Positions 11,577-50,600 of a stretch of 64,000 bases of DNA are shown here, piece by piece. Each line of letters begins with the position of its first letter. The stretch's first letter is position 1. This DNA is from Nemania diffusa. Its lineage: Eukaryota > Ascomycota > Sordariomycetes > Xylariales > Xylariaceae. A model generated the notes under the pieces. It did not search any database. It worked only from the letters and a program-made list of their open reading frames with translations, and was not told the origin of the DNA. The position numbers and the translations under genes are program-made. The DNA is taken from contig JBBPUQ010000006.1 of assembly GCA_038501195.1 (NCBI GenBank), forward strand, positions 3,844,001 to 3,908,000, in the 5' to 3' direction.

Positions 11577-13483
11577 ATGGTGTGTCCAATCTGCAGCATA
11601 AGACCACTACATGATGTACTGTCTGGGCTGAAAGTCGAGGGGTTTGACTCCGCAACTTGGTTCAAAATTGATAAAGACGAAATCTTGCGCAAGGCTTCCC
11701 AAGGAGGACTATGTGACCTATGCTATCCTATTGCAGAAGATGCCAGAAGTAGCCCTTATCAGTTTTATGAAGTGCGATTTGAAATCAGGGTTGCCATCGA
11801 GGCTGCTCGGTCATTTTGGCGACTAATCATTCACGGCAAAGAATGGTTGGTTTATGACGACCCTAGTATGTAGCGAATAATTGCAAATTTCTGTTTCGGA
11901 ATTAGCTCATATCTTCATAAATAGTCCATCTTATCGAGAGAGATCCAATGAGTAGTAAGGCGTTCGGTCACGTCCTGGGGTGGATAGCACATTGTAACCA
12001 GAATCACACAGAGTGTCACAAGAAGCAGCCAGACTTCATGCCATCTAGGCTCCTGGATGTCGGTGACTCTGAATCTCATGCTGTTCGAATCGTATCAGGC
12101 CCGAGCCAGAGAGGCAATTACGTGGCCTTGAGCCACTGTTGGGGTGCTTCGCAACCTCTCAGCACAACTACGACCACGTTGCCAAGCTTCCAGGTTTCTA
12201 TCAACACTAAACAACTCCCTAGCAATTTCTCAGACGCCATCGAGGTAACTCGTCGCTTAGGTATTCGGTATCTCTGGATCGATTCACTCTGTATTATTCA
12301 GGATGACCCGAAAGACTGGGCGCGTGAGGCCGCCACTATGGCACAGGTATATAGCAATGCAGAGATCACAGTTATTGCCTCGCGGTCATCTTGCTGCACA
12401 GATGGGTTTCTCTCATTGCGGACAACGGAAAAAGTTGTCGAAAGAGAAGAATTGACGGCTACGGGAGGAAAGCAAACACTATACCTCAGTAATAGGAGGT
12501 ACGGTTGGGGACACCCAACCCACTTCATTAAGCAGGATCCGCTATCCAATCGTGCGTGGACATTACAAGAGCGATGGCTCTCTCGGCGAACGATCATGTT
12601 CTCACAAGACCAAATCGTATGGGAGTGTAAAGAGATGACTGCCAGCGAGCATGACCCTCATAGGTATGTGCCTCGGTTGACTGCTGAACTAAACTGGAAA
12701 GATCTCGTCGAATCATATACGAGCCGCGCCATCACGTATGAGAAAGACACTCTCCCCGCGATCGCAGGTATTGCAAGGACAATCGGCGAGCACACTGGCC
12801 ATACTTACTGCGCCGGGGTCTGGGTTGAGAACTTGTCTAGTCTACTTTGGCGCCCGTCCAGCGGCGGGCCCATTACGTCAAGAGGCCCGAGGATGGAATA
12901 CATTGCGCCGACGTTTTCTTGGGCGGCTTTGGAAGGCCCAGTGTCATTCTTGACTACGCGATGGGAATATATTTGGCTGGTTAAGTACATCTCGCATGGG
13001 CAAGAACGCCGTGAGGCGACGACTGACTCGTATGGAGCTGTGAAAGGTGCGTGGCTAAAGCTGCGTGGCCCTCTCATTAGAGTGACTCGTGCGGAGCACC
13101 GTGATCTTAAAGATGGCCGCAACTCTATCGATATGGAGATCCATCTGGAAGGCGGAAGTAACTATGTAATTCAAGGCACAGACGACATGGACAAATCACG
13201 CACACCTTACAGGAACCTCGACGATGCCAACATGTTTCTCCTCCCTATTGCTTCCGAGGAAACATCAGGCAGCCCACCTCGGTTCTTACAAGGATTATAT
13301 TGTATGGTGCTTTCTCGAGTATCAAGTGGTAGTGGTCTACCTAGATTTCGTCGGATAGGATTGTCTGGCACTTTTCCAGAGCAGCTTACACCAACGGGGG
13401 ATAAAGTAAGCGGTAGGAATATCCTTCATCTATTTCTGGATGAGTTGGAGCGCCAGAAACCTGAGGATGTCGTGTTGATATAA
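11577..13483 (+). CDS. HET-domain (heterokaryon incompatibility) protein, 2 exons
   Basis: HET-domain proteins act in allorecognition and regulated cell death in filamentous ascomycetes. Exons 11577-11865 and 11925-13483 join across a 59-bp GTATGT...TAG intron to give 615 residues. Residues 1-96 hold two CxxC pairs (CPIC near the start and CDLCYPI), the small Cys-rich lead-in common before HET domains. The HET core begins YVALSHCWG (about 162-170). It continues with RRLGIRYLWIDSLCIIQ, DDPKDWAREAATMAQVYSNA, then RAWTLQERWLSRRTIMF and IVWECKE. The C-terminal third is variable, as usual. The CxxC exon shows that the ATG at 11948 is not the true start. The gene is complete, in contrast to the HET remnant at about 16 kb. 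Confidence 0.92.
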
Positions 13484-34533: not shown

Positions 34534-35640
34534 CTACTTCTGGCTTCTGGTACGCCTTCCATGGGGTTTGGTATATCCACTCGCAGATGTAGACTGAGTA
34601 CTAGTGGACGACGAGGAAGGTTGATTGGCGAAATTGATATTATTGCCAATTTTATTCGCAATTATCCTATTGCCATCACCTGTCCACTTCCACATTGGCA
34701 TTTCTCTGGTTGACGGATATCCATTGAAATTGCTGCCAACCTGACATTCCACGCTTCCTTTAGGAGGCTCTATTAGATTATTGCTTCCAGTGAAGACAAA
34801 GCCATGACCAGAATTGTCATATGGAGTGACTTCTAGGCTTTCCTCTCCGGTAGGGTCGTCAATGTCAGGTTGGTGCTTGTGCTGAGAGGCACCTTGTAGG
34901 TGAGCTGCTGCGGAGATGCCTTTAGTCTGTATGGCCATCATATGTCCTTGCTGTCTGTGGTCCCGCGTGTAATCCAGAGTGTCAGTAGCTTCGTCTGTAG
35001 GGAAGGCTCGCTCTCCTACAAATGGACTAGAACCAGAACTAAAGTTCGATCGCCTATGGTTCGTCACAGTCTCTAGAGCAATAAACTTAGTACTATATCA
35101 AGGGAAGAAAAACAGTAACCGTAAGATTTATAATCTATAAAACATGAATGCGGAAGCCAACTACTTACTTGTATACCCATATTGGACCTGAATCTGCTGT
35201 TTATTCATTTTCTCTAGAATCTCCTCTAGGGTACGCCCTTGAGTTGCGGAAAGGTATAGGATAAGGTTATTCTTGGCGCGCTCAAGGTTATTTAGTCCTT
35301 CAATGATCTTGCTCTCGGTCTTGATAATACTTGGAACATTCCAGAGACGAAGGTAGACTTTTATTCTAAAGCGATTGCGGACCTTGGCCAAAAGGTTGTC
35401 TAATTCATGAAGGTGTTTGTGCACAATTAACAGTAGCACTTGTAAAGTGTCTAGTGTCAATGGCTGGGAGGATCTTATAAGGTGTAGTATAGCTAGCAGA
35501 GATTCCAATTCGGTGATTCTCTGAAAGGCCCGTGGTAATCCCTTTTTTGCCTCGTCATGGATGCGGTGAATGGTCTTGATGATTGATGCAGCAATCGTTA
35601 CGAGCTGGACGATGCTAGCTACAACACCGAGAGCCTCCAT
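34534..35640 (-). CDS. SesA/HeLo-like domain protein with C-terminal amyloid-like motif repeats (2 exons)
   Basis: Exons 35169-35640 and 34534-35072 join across a 96-bp GTAAGT...TAG intron to give 336 residues. The all-helical N-terminal domain (1 to about 145) begins MEALGVVASIVQLVTIAASI. It continues with a helix around ITELESLLAILHLI and ends with LNNLERAKNNLILYLSATQ. This is the pattern of SesA/HeLo-like domains found at N-termini of fungal NLRs and death effectors. No NACHT or NB-ARC follows. Residues 160-245 are polar and disordered. Two related motifs follow: FTGSNNLIEPPKGSVECQVG with SNFN (about 251-275), and KWTGDGNRIIANKIGNNINF (about 286-305), then a Ser/Thr-rich and basic tail. 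Both share [FW]TG[SD].N[LR]I ... [QK][VI]G.N. The layout (death-type domain plus C-terminal prion-like repeats) is that of HET-s/HELLP-like executioners. Its divergent neighbour carries a third copy of the motif. Function is inferred. Confidence 0.8.
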
Positions 35641-36531
35641 ATTTGTAATAACATTCTTTTATCTTACAATAATTGATCAGTGTGGTAATAGAGAGTGAGG
35701 GGGGTCAGGGATAATCCCGAGGACTTATCTTGCCACCCTCGGGACTAGCCCCTTCATAACCGCCATATGCGACGTAATCACGAGCCGCAAGAATACTGTC
35801 GTCTTGGCCCCAACCACTACTGTATTTTGCTACACCAATGGGCCGATGAGAAATGTGAGGGAATTGGTGGGCACGGTTTCAAGGAAAGCTGCACAAACAA
35901 GACAGAAGCCCATCATTGGAGCCTTGCATCGTCGCCATAATCAAAATATGCACCAAGTAGGCTGCCCAGCAGATGCAGGGGCTGCAAACTCCGCGCCACC
36001 CCCAGATATCCCATACGGCTATTTATAAATAGTAGGCAACTTAGAGCCGATGAAGATTTTCAAAGATTTTCTCAGGCTTCAGAAATCTCGAAATCAAAAC
36101 AATAAGTAGATTTTAGTGTTGAGAACCTGCTTACCTCGCTATCTCAGCTAGCCCCCAGAGGGTGTATGAAGAATAAATAGAAAAGCACATCGCGGACTTG
36201 CACACCTAATTTAGAAGTAACAGGGTAAATTATAATGACATCCCAGTCCACGGATGCCAGCTGACATTACACTTGAATTCGCCAAGGTTATGTGTACAAG
36301 GCTGGGTGCTACCTTAGGCGTAGCTACCTTCATGTCGAAAAGGCCACGGCATTAGCATTTCTCCCATCAACCCAACGAAGGCCCGGCGTGTTGTAATTCC
36401 CATTTCCAGCTTTCCAACACACGTATTACTTCACTTTGGCTCGCACCTTACCCCTTCGTATGTACGACATATATCGATTCACTCCATTGAGATAGTTTTC
36501 TCTGACATTCTCGCTACGCCGAGTAGGCACT
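35641..36531. promoter_or_regulatory. divergent intergenic region between the motif-sharing genes
   Basis: An 891-bp spacer between start codons, containing no gene I can support. If the two genes act together it would carry a bidirectional promoter; no specific binding site is evident by eye. Confidence 0.35.
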
Positions 36532-37827
36532 ATGATGCAGTCTGGTCCCGCAAGGGTCCATCATATATCAGGCAATCACATTCAGAGCAAACAGGTCGGG
36601 GACAACAATGAATATGGCAACCGTAACACCAACAGTCTCTACTTCAACATATGTTCTTGCACGCCGCGGAGGCCTAAATCTGTATCGAGTACCTCATCAA
36701 CTGAAAGGCCCGAGTCAGCTAAGAAGAGGCCCATTAAGGCCATCGTTATTACCGTCTCTGCTGTCTTGCTCATAGCGCTGGTAATCACTTTACCATTGCT
36801 GGCGGCGTATCACAAATTACCTCCCAATGATGGAATGGGCCAGTAAGTGGACTCGGGCCATACATCAGGAACCTTTAATTCCAAGGCCATAGATTAATGA
36901 CCCGTTTTTACCAGCGACCAATCGGATACAGTATTGCAATCATCGGCTTCGGGATCTAGAAGCTATAGTATTGTTACAACTCCGACGGCGACGACCTCGA
37001 ATAGCATGGCTTGGGCCGAGTCATCACTCACGTCTTCAGAGTCGTCATCCGCGCCTCCTGAGCCGTCATCCACGCCTCCCCAGTTGTCGTCCACATCTCC
37101 CAAGGCACCATCCACATCTTCCAAAGCACCATCCACGTCTTCCGCCGTCTCGCCCCAGAGAAGTGATACGAGTAAAGCAAGCTCATTGAGTGTTACGGAT
37201 ATGCCGCAAACGAGTAGTACATCTCCGACCAACGACTCCGTCCACCTTGTGAATTGTGTGGGCTCTGAGTTTTACTCCGTCGTTGTGGTATGTTTTATGT
37301 CTCTGAGGAGCTTATAATTGTTTCAATTCATACTAAATGTAATCTCTTCTACGTATAGTATTGTGCTGAAGATACCGATTGCGATTTCGAACCATCTTCG
37401 TCGAACTATATCCAAGTTACTTCTGGTGGTGAGTATTATCATTGGGAGCAACAGGACCAGTCTGCCACTTTCCCAACTGCTGTGACGTTCAATTGGAGCA
37501 TCAATAGCACCGGAGGCTCTTCTCCCAACTACAGTCCTCAAGGGTAAGCGTTATTTGCACATTTCATCCTCGTTTGACTTTCCGATGGACTTTCACTAAA
37601 GCTGCCGTTAAATTTCTCTCGGTGGAATAATTAGTACTATTTGCCCGTAGTACAAGTTGTTCCTTATCCTTACTTTTCGCAGTTACAAGAACCATAGCAT
37701 CTAACAAGGAAACAGGGTTGGTAGTAACGGCTATAAGACGTTTACATGTTATAAAGATGATTACCGCTTGATGTACAATGACAATCAAGGCAACCAATGC
37801 GAAAGTGTTTATTATTGTATTATATAA
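36532..37827 (+). CDS. predicted single-pass membrane protein with N-terminal amyloid-like motif and Cys-rich ectodomain (4 exons)
   Basis: Exons 36532-36842, 36915-37287, 37359-37543 and 37716-37827 join in frame to 326 residues. Residues 13-28 (SGNHIQSKQVGDNNEY) match the motif repeated in the divergent neighbour. The KQVGDNN core also resembles a RHIM core ([VI]Q[VI]GxxN). Then come CSC, a Ser/Thr/Arg linker and KKRPIK directly before the helix AIVITVSAVLLIALVITLPL (70-89). Positive charges on that side predict N-in, C-out topology. Residues about 105-215 are a Ser/Thr/Pro stalk with SSTSSKAPS-type repeats, likely O-glycosylated. The ectodomain has six cysteines (218, 230, 236, 301, 318, 324), ending CESVYYC. 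I chose the last acceptor at 37715 because it restores YKTFTCYKDDYRLM and the final Cys pair; other acceptors end the protein early. No homologous family is known to me. Receptor function is inference. Confidence 0.75.
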
Positions 37828-46180: not shown

Positions 46181-47619
46181 TTATTTCTTCATTTCAAAAC
46201 TTCCCACGCTGTATAGCTCGAATTGTATCCTCGAGGGCGCGACACCGTTCTTCTGCAGGTGGCTCCCTATCTCGTTCATAAACTTCTCGGGTCCACAGAC
46301 GTAGTACTGTGCCAGGCTGCTGTACAGCCACAAGTCCTCCCAATCGAGACCGCAGAAGTCTTCCTGGAAGCGGGACGTCAGCGAGATGACGTCGCCGTCA
46401 GCAAGTCGAGAGCGGAAGAATTTGACGCGGACGTTAGGGTCCGTCTTGGCAATCTTCTCGACTCGCTCGCGGAAGGGCGCATCGTGGCGCGACGCCTGGA
46501 TCCAGGAGATCGGTCTGCCATTACCCTGCTCTGAGACCACCTTCAACATGGGGTACAGAGGGGCCGCACCCGCGCCCGCAGAGATGAGGACGACAGGGCT
46601 GGTATTGGGGTCCTCGGCGTCGAGGAAGAACTCGCCGGCGGGGTGGGTCAACTCGACAGCACCGCCCACCTCAAAATCATCGATGAGGGTATTGGACACG
46701 AGGCCCGGCCTGTGCGGGCGCACACTGCCAATGCTACTATCAGATGCACTGCTCGCAGCGGACGAGATCGGAGGGCCGTCGTCTAGGTTTCCGAATTGTC
46801 GTGGATCGTGCTTTGCGTCTTCACTAGCTCCGATATCCCGCTTGACGGTGATACGGTAGCTGTCGGGGCGTGGGGCATCGCTGAGGGAGTACTGACGCAG
46901 CTGACGGTACTTGTGTCCCTTGACCTTTAGGCGAATGGTGACATACTGGCCCGGTTTGAAGGAGGGCAGTGGCTTTCCGTCGACTGGCGCAAGGGTGAAT
47001 GAAACGATGTCGCCCTCGATCGTCTCCGACGTCTTCTTAGAGATGGTGAAGGGGCGCCAATCCGGCCAGTTTGCGAATTCCTTGTATATGATTGCTTCGC
47101 GGCCCGTGAGCACTACGACAGAGCAGGTCAGTCACACATGAGTGAATCGATCGCTGTCACTTCAGGTAAAGAACAGAGACCAGAGACCAACAGGTCAGAG
47201 GGGGCAGGGAGGGGGTTCTTACTCTTGGCCATCAGCCAGTAGGCCTTGGTCCAGGCGGTATTGACCTCAGGGGTCATGGCAGGGCCGAGCACGGCGGAAA
47301 AGGCGCGGATCAGGTACTTGGCGACGATCTCGTAGTGTTCGGGGTGGATGGAGAGCGAGGCATGTTTCTGAGCCACTCGCTCGAGCTTGGGGGTCAGCTC
47401 ACTGATGTTGACGATGTTGGAAGCAAAGGCCAGGATCAGGGCAGTCAGTGCGCGAGGCTGTCTGCCGGTGTGCATGTTGACGCTGTTGAAGTAGTTGTTG
47501 AGCTCGGGGTGGTCGCGCAACATGCTCTTGTAGAAGACGGTGGAGATGTGCTCGCCATGCTGCCGCAGAGCCGGGATGGTCTCGTTGACCAGCTCGGCTT
47601 CCCGCCGTGTCAGGGCCAT
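46181..47619 (-). CDS. FHB1: flavohemoglobin (nitric oxide dioxygenase), 2 exons
   Basis: Oxidises nitric oxide to nitrate using O2, heme, FAD and NAD(P)H. Exons 47223-47619 and 46181-47112 join across a 110-bp intron to give 442 residues. I start at MALTRREAELV; the upstream in-frame extension is Pro/Thr/Ser-rich and probably leader. Globin domain residues match the family: Tyr30 (B10), Gln54 (E7) and proximal His86 in VAQKHASLSI. The linker LTGREAIIYKEFANWPDWRPF is split by the intron. The FAD domain has RQLRQYSLSDAP. An insertion rich in Ser/Ala (about 245-280, ISSAASSASDSSIGSVRPHRPG) interrupts the usual FAD-domain loop before GLVSNTL. The NAD(P) domain has ISAGAGAAPLYPMLK and AQYYVCGPEKFM. 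No mitochondrial signal is evident. Confidence 0.95.
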
Positions 47620-50600
47620 GGAGGCGGGTGGCGTTCTATTGTGCTCGGTGGATGCTCGACTAGTGGTCGATGATTGATCCGAGGGCGTTGGTGTTTGTGC
47701 CTCTTGGAGAGGGGGATTGATCGATGGGTGGGTGGAGGGAGTCCCGACCATTTGGTGCAATTACAAGCAGTCTGGCAGCGGGGACGGGACTTATCTACAT
47801 ATATAGTAGATAGGTCGGTGAGTAGAGACACGGGCAAGTAAGCTAAGTAAGTAAGTACCTAGGTAAGTGGATAGGTAGGTAGGCCAGGTATCTAGGTAAG
47901 TGGACGTGGACGTAGGTAGACGTGGACGAGGTGGGATGAATTGGAGTCGAGATGGGTTGAATTGGGCCGGGCTTGGATTTGGATTTGAATTTTGGGCATC
48001 TAGCATCTATGTAGAGATATGTAGGCAGGCAGGTAGAATGTACGTAGATAGATAAATAAATAAAAGGGTACACACAAGTCGAACCTTGTATGACGAATCT
48101 ACTATGAAAATATGACAGCTGCTACTCCCCAATTTTTTTTATCCTTCCTTCTGTGTATTTTTTTTCTGGTTGTGCCTTCCGAGATCGTGATTACATATAT
48201 TCTAGAATGTAAAACTTAAAAAAATTAATGCTTCCCCATGTAATTACCGACATAGCGTTTTGCCCAGCTGCAGGGTTTGGTCATGGGGATGTGAATGGCC
48301 TGATGTAACGGCTATCTGGCATGATATCGGCTTGTTCTGTCCGGGGGTTGCTCGTTCTGGTGCCTCACCTTTTTGCCCGTCACGTAGGCTAGCCCATGAG
48401 GTAGTTGGACCCGAACTAGAGGTGCACTATAGAGTACATGCCATGTATAGTACCTGTGTACGGTCCTGTCCATGCACGCACATGCACGGGGTGAGAATAC
48501 TATTGAGACGATGACGCTATTTCAGGAACCCACGATTCGACGAGGCGGGAGGAACCGGCCTTCCCTTAGCTGTGTTACCTATTTAACAGCCACTATCACT
48601 CACTGTACCTACGGCTTACAGCCCACCTAGAGCCTGCTTTACGGTGCTCAGGTGCTGTAAGATGCCCTATATAATGACCTACATGCATGCACTTTACCTA
48701 CACTGTGGACGTAAGAAACGTGATAATAAAAGAAGCAACAGACAGGCCATCATCACCACCATGATGTCTTGATCATCTGCCAAATAGCCATTTCAACCTG
48801 TTTATTTCTTGTCTATAAATAACATGCATCAGGTAGTATTCAGTGTAAGTATGCTTGTGGCAAGTTTGTAATGCCTCTTTTGAGTGTAGAATAGAAGAAG
48901 GTGAAGAGATATATAGGTTAGATGTTAATGAAGTTTAAACACGAGGTATACCTAAGGCACTAACATATAGGCACTCTTAGCACTTAGGTACCTACATTAC
49001 CGCCACTACCTAACGCTAGGTACTTACCTCCAAACGACACTACACGACACTACTTACACTACAGAATACATGCTTAACCTAGGTATCTCCACCTCCAAAT
49101 ACTAACAGTACGTCAAAGGTACCACGTACCTAGGTTCCGGTATACCCAGTGCAGCCAGGGCAGAATAACGGCGGTGACCAGGGATCATTATCCGGACTTC
49201 TAGTCTGGGTACTCGAGTTACATCACGAACAGAAACCGCCAACATTCCAGGTGTGAAGGTGTGTGACACCCGGAAAACCCGGGAAATGGTTTCCCAATAA
49301 GGATCATGTTCGCAGCACGGTGGGTCGAGGGTGAATGCATTCACGTAGTATTTTATCCATTAACCTCTGCGCCCTCCCTGCCTATATCGCAGGTGCTCTA
49401 TATCACCGAAGAAACATACATATAGCACCAGTACCGCCCGTATGTAAGTGAGGGAAAGAGGGAGCGGTAAACGTCTACCTGCGCATATTACTTCGGTTCG
49501 AACAAGCAATACGGCTTATTCCGCGGCCCACGGCAAGATGCAGGGACTTCGGAAGATATGGATCCAATCAGGGCCCCCGCGGTGATTATCTAGATCAAAC
49601 CGGATATCTTCGTACGATATCAAAATGAGTGAGGGCCTAGTCAATCTAGATATGTAGATGGCGGGGAGGAGAGTTATACAACAGTCTTGGTACCACAAGA
49701 TCCTAGCAATTACGTAGTAGGGATGAATAGTAGTAATGAGGTAAGGACGTAGACGAAACTCCGCACATCGCTGTGAGTCCCTCGTGAGTCCCTTGTGAGC
49801 TCTTCGTGAGAGGGTTCCCCATTTATTAGTCGAGGTACAACAGCTGCAACACGCTTGGAACTTACGCCCTCGCTAAGTCTCCCTGTCTAATATGCCGGTT
49901 GTATAGCGCCTATTATAGGTGCTTAGTACGAGATGCTATGATGACAAGCGCATAGCTGATTTTTATTGCCGAGGTGTCCAAGAATTTATGTATAGCCTCG
50001 TTCATATCTTTTCTCCCTACGATATGCGCATGCACATATACCTACTGTAATGTCGTATTTTAGTGTTCAAAAGAGTACGAACTGGTGGGAACTGAAGTGC
50101 TCGGCTCGCTTAACCTTACCTAGAACACACCCGTTAGCACGAGACCAATTAGCCATAGCGCCCGCCCATCAAAATGAAGATTACGTACCTAGGCGGTTCC
50201 TGGGGGCTAGCATTACACTAGGTCGGTTGGTGCCGTAGGGGAATTTAATCCCTAACGATCTGCCTCCACGGGATCCCTTAACACTTAACACGGCCTACCT
50301 ATATCCTATATCACCACTCCAGTAATTTAGCACGGTAAGATGCACGGAACAGCACAGAGAGTACCTACATACACATACAATCTTATATGTGCTTAGTGAG
50401 GGTCGAGCCACAAAAAACCGAGGATGTCGCTTATCTCGCGGGATTAACCCTGCACTTACATTACATTATATGGCGTCGGCAAGGATCGAGCGCAGTTAGG
50501 GATTCGCGCGCCGCCGCAGACTGGTATTACCGACTGCGCCCGCTGCGAAATTGATCAACTATCGCGTGACGAGAAGGAGGAGAGCGAAGACAAAAGGCCA

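Follow-up and report, generated by a model that had tools for sequence, protein, structure and literature searches.

In the fungal amyloid signalling pairs HET-S/NWD2 and HELLP/PNT1, a motif is carried at the C-terminus of the effector and again at the N-terminus of its partner (PMC7885112, section 4), and that partner is a NOD-like receptor (NLR). NLR-independent signalling amyloids of fungi were regarded as an open question in a 2021 review, which pointed out that searches to date have been biased towards NLR/executor architectures (PMC7889193, section 10). In Drosophila, PGRP-LC is a membrane receptor whose recognition domain lies outside the cell and whose cytosolic motif is a "cryptic" RHIM without the conserved Gln; its signalling is restrained by a membrane relative and tuned by secreted relatives (PMC9496462). 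Here we analyse a stretch of 64,000 nucleotides of the Nemania diffusa genome (the window; positions 3844001-3908000 of contig C6, in a genome of 55.6 Mb on 16 contigs), in which two head-to-head genes encode a predicted membrane receptor and a SesA/HeLo-like effector. We tentatively read the pair, with a confidence that stays a little below even, as a two-component module for cell death whose membrane sensor is coupled by a motif to the effector. This reading is based on the gene structures, the co-occurrence of the partners, the membrane helix, the homologies of ectodomain and effector, and a weak motif match.

The pair resembles HELLP/PNT1 and HET-S/NWD2 in that adjacent genes encode a HeLo-related helical domain with a C-terminal motif and a partner with an N-terminal motif. 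It differs from them in that the partner is a predicted membrane protein and not an NLR, the motif is missed by the PP and HET-s models and the similarity between the partners is much weaker. By analogy, PGRP-LC with its partner IMD is the closest working counterpart: both systems have a membrane receptor, an outside recognition domain, a cytosolic motif without the RHIM Gln and secreted paralogues of the ectodomain (PMC9496462). Here, however, there is no PGRP domain, the partner is HeLo-like instead of a death-domain adaptor, and the motif is not a RHIM by model. Like the sigma cluster (SesA/SesB/Het-eN), the pair combines an Asn/Gly-rich motif with an effector domain of SesA type, whereas the three matches of the sigma model lie on contig C1 and not at the window locus. 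A motif-coupled receptor and executioner is thus a known kind of arrangement, and a membrane receptor in the place of the NLR would be the new element; no description of a fungal membrane receptor replacing an NLR was found in the literature searched, in which subscription papers and preprints were thinly covered.

The mechanism that we propose would start with an extracellular cue sensed by the secreted-protein-like ectodomain of the receptor. The receptor would then cluster and bring its cytosolic Asn/Gly-rich motifs into alignment, the aligned motif would recruit and convert the repeat R2 at the effector C-terminus by templated assembly, and the HeLo-like N-terminus of the effector would be released into the membrane, permeabilise it and cause cell death. 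Since both proteins share a weak Asn/Gly-rich motif, an outside signal would likely activate the killer without an intracellular NLR. We infer how the receptor is oriented in the membrane, that it senses a ligand and clusters, that the two motifs make contact, and that amyloid-type templating and cell killing follow, the dynamic steps being taken from what is described for HET-S/NWD2 and HELLP/PNT1 (PMC7885112, section 4; PMC9815663, sections 6 and 19) and for PGRP-LC (PMC9496462). A more far-reaching version appears possible, if doubtful: fungal cell-surface receptors might signal by prion-like templating, with a type II receptor, composed of a cytosolic amyloid motif and a helix from one exon joined to an ectodomain of a secreted family, directly seeding a motif of a new class in an executioner related to HeLo and MLKL. 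This would be an NLR-free counterpart of PGRP-LC connected directly to a killer of the necroptosis type, possibly triggered by its own secreted paralogue.

With its orthologues, its membrane-spanning sensor and an executioner of a known class, the pair provides a concrete two-gene candidate for an NLR-independent route. If the proposal is true, fungi would possess a cell-surface path to regulated cell death parallel to that of PGRP-LC in the fly, and the secreted paralogue of the ectodomain would be a starting point for a ligand hunt.

Gene models and co-occurrence of the pair

The divergent gene pair predicted in the first-pass annotation is real, as judged from the gene models and from relatives of both proteins in three other Xylariales fungi. 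The effector has 336 residues encoded in two exons and the receptor 326 residues in four, and all four introns of the two genes have GT..AG ends. The features are as follows.

35169..35640, minus strand: effector exon 1 (gene model; the relative P0004 aligns over its whole length)
35203-35640, minus strand: effector SesA/HeLo-like domain, residues 1-146 (hhalign probability 97.8, E=1e-12 against SesA/HeLo-like domains of the same genome)
34534..35072, minus strand: effector exon 2, linker of low complexity followed by the tail with the motif (gene model, alignment of relatives)
34723..34800, minus strand: effector R1, first proposed repeat, FVFTGSNNLIEPPKGSVECQVGSNFN (sequence; it does not resemble the receptor motif)
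34624..34692, minus strand: effector R2, second repeat, WKWTGDGNRIIANKIGNNINFAN, the portion matching the receptor motif (motif tests)
35641..36531, no strand: intergenic region, 891 bases from start codon to start codon (sequence)
36532..36842, plus strand: receptor exon 1, encoding the cytosolic part plus the membrane helix (gene model; covered by the relative P0010)
36568..36633, plus strand: receptor cytosolic motif, SGNHIQSKQVGDNNEYGNRNTN (sequence, relatives)
36739..36807, plus strand: predicted membrane helix of the receptor, AIVITVSAVLLIALVITLPLLAA (Kyte-Doolittle)
36915..37287, plus strand: receptor exon 2, encoding the Ser/Thr stalk and the first part of the ectodomain (gene model)
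37359..37543, plus strand: receptor exon 3, ectodomain (gene model, homologues)
37716..37827, plus strand: receptor exon 4, end of the ectodomain (found in P0008 and in the C5 paralogue)

The nearest relatives of both proteins come from Ustulina deusta, Xylaria bambusicola and Nemania sp. FL0031, all of them Xylariaceae (Xylariales). The effector model is backed by its relatives P0003-P0007, whose identity is 48-86% where they match. Among these, part of the domain is missing from the annotation of P0003, P0007 stops upstream of R2, and in P0006 (188 aa) the domain runs directly into R2, without linker and R1, by either alternative splicing or an annotation error. The receptor model is backed by P0001 (66%), P0002 (59%), P0008 and P0010, the last of which covers exon 1 only. 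Since the annotation of P0001 and P0002 stops at SPQG, that is, without exon 4, this exon was initially doubtful. The annotation of the Nemania protein P0008, however, reads through it, and a secreted-type gene on contig C5 has two introns at matching sites and phases together with a counterpart of exon 4. The idea that exon 4 is not real was therefore rejected, and the exon stands together with the six cysteines.

In all three species in which both partners were found, these lie on contigs of equal size: 25,793 bases in U. deusta, where the locus numbers are consecutive (569035 and 569036), 317,352 bases in X. bambusicola and 624,479 bases in Nemania sp. FL0031, whose receptor partner P0008 is annotated only from the stalk onward, so that any motif and helix would lie outside the annotated part. 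The identical sizes point to one common contig per species, which sets the spacing in U. deusta below 26 kb; linkage was read here from contig sizes. As for conservation of the pair as neighbours, which the first-pass annotation proposed to check, one shared contig is indicated in each of the three species. A further effector relative of X. bambusicola, P0007, lies on a contig of 199,209 bases, and no receptor was found to go with it.

Receptor topology and effector homology

The sole hydrophobic segment of the receptor spans residues 70-92, with a Kyte-Doolittle mean of 2.82 over 21 residues, compared with 0.93 for the next separate stretch, and KKRPIK precedes it. Since the single helix follows these basic residues, the N-terminus is predicted to be cytosolic. 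The receptor would accordingly be a type II membrane protein with a cytosolic motif, a helix, a Ser/Thr stalk and an ectodomain, the orientation being that of Drosophila PGRP-LC. The motifs, the basic residues on the N side of the helix, the stalk and the six ectodomain cysteines quoted in the first-pass annotation are all present. The receptor also has four N-linked sequons between residues 210 and 285. No NACHT or NB-ARC match was obtained with Pfam in the receptor, nor in the 20 window open reading frames (ORFs) scanned beyond the pair itself, out of 54 with at least 140 codons. A membrane sensor replacing the NLR survives as the best reading of the pair: the predicted transmembrane nature of the proposed sensor is supported, and its coupling to the effector by an amyloid motif would follow by analogy.

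Homologues of the ectodomain comprise 11 database proteins (P0009, P0011-P0020) and the C5 gene. As judged without a signal-peptide predictor, 10 of the 11 have a hydrophobic signal-like start and the eleventh has it after an extension, a KR site then following; by name, nine belong to Xylariales-type genera or are so labelled, and one to Thyridium, from another order. Since the ectodomain is related to proteins of secreted type, an extracellular location is expected. The receptor gene looks like a fusion, to which exon 1 would have supplied motif and helix. The C5 gene (L021, 4446-5027) is a secreted-type paralogue of the ectodomain with identical intron positions and phases, possibly a ligand or decoy. 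An AlphaFold2 model of P0008, based on 14 sequences, showed an all-beta domain with a mean predicted local distance difference test (pLDDT) score of 72.4, and fold comparison gave weak beta-barrel matches only (Alt a 1 and dirigent-like barrels were considered). PDB sequence searches for the ectodomain returned chance-level lines only, one of which, for the C5 paralogue, names a PGRP (E 0.48); the Pfam PGRP model had no match in the receptor at E<=10.

For the effector, Pfam gave sub-threshold matches to PigL_N (E 0.026), a model termed HeLo-like in PMC9815663 (section 6), and to SesA (E 0.044). By profile comparison, the N-terminal domain clearly belongs to the wider SesA/HeLo-like superfamily: hhalign aligned it with six SesA/HeLo-like domains of the same genome at a probability of 97.8 and E=1e-12 over 131 columns, compared with E=0.018 for the reversed profile and scores of at most 18.0 for 50 column shuffles (real score 79.4). 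Four single SesA/HeLo-like rows matched the effector with E from 4e-8 to 6e-6, and one SesA-like domain alone with E=5e-6. One of the four rows, L024, matches Pfam SesA (E=1.8e-4) and adjoins a frame in which a GLGGVGKT P-loop can be read by eye. Foldseek with the effector model gave nothing usable, and a PDB profile search with the effector gave a single chance match.

Two paralogous effectors, L022 and L025 on contigs C3 and C4, have a related N-terminal domain and repeated tails of their own (IDVSGDRSDIGH / KIRVSGNDSKIGH; KIDVEGSDNIFG / DIRIRGSNSFFG), which are possible further motif classes. L022 matches MLKL_N weakly (E 0.025). Local alignment within 9.9 kb around each revealed no partner for either tail. 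When the genome was searched with the L025 tail, only this tail itself came up and the visibly similar L022 tail was missed, so short-motif searches are insensitive.

The shared motif and its possible explanations

The motif lies at the N-terminus of the receptor and at the C-terminus of the effector. The ungapped match between the receptor motif and R2 that had been noted before (GNHIQSKQVGDNNEY / GNRIIANKIGNNINF, 15 residues) is present, and it is the best segment in an ungapped test over three species, in which 12 and 10 of 5000 column permutations did as well; since the compared species are related, the permutation counts are not clean probabilities. With segment lengths fixed at 12, 15, 18 and 21, p was 0.109, 0.021, 0.006 and 0.001, respectively. 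When R2 was taken out of the effector tail, the match was gone (1076 and 1094 of 2000). In single species, the ungapped score was reached by 11 and 3 of 2000 permutations for the window pair, 227 and 216 for Ustulina, and 375 and 417 for Xylaria. A gapped test, in which the first 67 residues of the receptor were locally aligned with the effector tail, recovered the quoted match for the window pair, where it was reached by 130 and 144 of 5000 shuffles. Moreover, in the set of 1583 window ORFs the receptor motif and R2 each have the other as their best match apart from themselves, though narrowly (42 vs 37 and 38 vs 36), and R2 is still the top match of the receptor motif (42 vs 39) in a wider set of 4504 ORFs from 216,081 bases, from which eight loci repeating the pair were excluded. 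Taken over three species, the similarity of the receptor motif and R2 therefore appears weak and above permutation chance. The first-pass annotation had described two C-terminal repeats sharing the receptor motif; this holds for R2, whereas R1 does not resemble the motif (p 0.27) and R1 against R2 reaches p 0.07 only. Orthologues lacking the motif had been named as refuting evidence, and the outcome is mixed: the receptor motif is retained in P0001, P0002 and P0010, whereas R2 has eroded in both Xylaria and Nemania and is missing from P0007. A DNA pattern for the motif codons was uninformative (22 found vs 17 expected).

PP and RHIM share the core G-(I,V)-Q-(I,V)-G (PMC7885112, section 4), of which only the second half is present here (SKQVG in the receptor, ECQVG in R1, NKIG in R2), and R2 lacks its Q. 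Neither the whole proteins nor six short pieces matched Ses_B (PF17046, PP), RHIM (PF12721), HET-s_218-289 (PF11558, HET-s/HRAM) or NACHT_sigma (PF17106) at E<=10, and genome-wide searches with the four models did not find the window pair. Since these models miss the pair, the PP/RHIM-type label given earlier is unsupported, and the motif belongs to none of the PP, sigma, HRAM and RHIM classes by model. Elsewhere in the genome, Ses_B does find a pair, and only this one, on contig C7 (L029), where a HeLo-like effector (PigL_N E 2e-18) and a frame that contains repeats and a P-loop are arranged head to head. The HET-s model finds one locus below the cut-off on contig C3 (L030), with a HET-s-like gene beside a frame of the same kind; the reading of both frames as NLRs was made by eye. 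The three sigma matches on contig C1 (L033-L035) include one in a SesA protein (E 7e-39), and RHIM gave three sub-threshold matches, all away from the window pair. Having PP, HET-s-like and sigma-type loci in one genome offers useful positive controls. When the receptor motif, R1 and R2 were compared with the PP, HET-s and sigma motifs of the same genome and the two paralogue tails, nothing beyond chance was seen; the lowest p (0.025, receptor vs HET-s r2) is at chance level since 27 comparisons were made.

Several results weigh against the cell-death module. The gapped test reached no significance in Ustulina alone (526 and 428 of 5000) or in Xylaria (565 and 619), where the best alignment lies off the motif. 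Since partners swapped between species match equally well (7 and 7 of 2000), there is no sign of partner-specific co-evolution. Two chance frames among the 4504 ORFs (48 and 46) beat the receptor as a match for R2. R2 is conserved about as well as the linker over four species (0.437 vs 0.429, R1 0.494), and the receptor motif is no better kept than the ectodomain (0.82 vs 0.84). With a score of 35, the window pair falls far behind the PP and HET-s pairs found elsewhere in this genome (72 and 66, 0 of 2000 permutations each). On the effector side, the curated Pfam cut-offs for PF17107 and PF17111 (26.3 and 27.2 bits) are reached neither by the effector (14.4 and 14.3) nor by P0003, P0004, P0005 and P0007. 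The clear sigma SesA and HELLP domains gave E 0.2 together and 0.049 and 0.41 alone, the tie of the effector to the SesA/HeLo-like group appearing in the profile comparisons to run via intermediates, and AlphaFold2 on five effector relatives was poor (mean pLDDT 38.8). The executioner proposed as SesA-type is backed by the profile comparison (E=1e-12), whereas it misses the Pfam cut-offs, and its structure model is too poor for use.

Such figures would also suit a chance likeness of two Asn/Gly-rich stretches, with genes that are neighbours through a shared promoter or as co-inherited self-recognition genes and a receptor that is an unrelated surface protein. Among the rivals this one survives best, and we consider it unlikely. 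It would explain why the statistics are modest (130 of 5000 for the window pair, no significance in the two other species), the better matching of R2 by chance frames, its erosion in Xylaria and Nemania and the p of 0.109 at the shortest segment tested; it would not lead one to expect that, over three species, the best segment joins the receptor motif to R2 (12 and 10 of 5000) and that co-occurrence on a single contig is retained in three species. The three-species co-occurrence and the shared 15-residue motif suit any direct partnership, including one without amyloid in which the membrane protein acts as a brake or anchor, holding the effector inactive by ordinary motif binding until its loss or modification frees the killer. 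The motif indeed fits no amyloid motif model tried, and in flies PGRP-LC is restrained by a membrane relative without the cytosolic motif (PMC9496462). A two-part effector whose C-terminal motif faces an N-terminal partner motif is, however, the layout of the known activating pairs, and a fungal HeLo guard of such a kind is without precedent in the literature searched, so that we give this alternative, too, a low probability, close to that of chance likeness. Activation of the effector by an unlinked NLR with a matching motif, the membrane protein being a side branch or bystander, seems improbable, since whole-protein and receptor-motif searches of the genome gave no further motif bearer and the 20 window ORFs scanned held no NLR, even though signalling between effectors and NLRs of non-adjacent genes has been suspected (PMC9815663) and short-motif searches proved insensitive with the L025 tail.

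Neighbouring features

The intergenic region shared by the two genes contains a stretch of ~140 bases (36057-36209), and 13 more copies of it, 71-80% identical, are spread over eight contigs. The stretch is probably an old dispersed element within a bidirectional promoter, and Rfam gave no match for it. About 21 kb from the pair lies a gene with a HET (heterokaryon incompatibility) domain (11921-13480; Pfam E 1.5e-34). On the minus strand, adjacent frames at 47131-47760 and 46184-47131 encode a globin and an oxidoreductase NAD-binding domain, respectively, and likely represent a single gene of flavohaemoglobin type.

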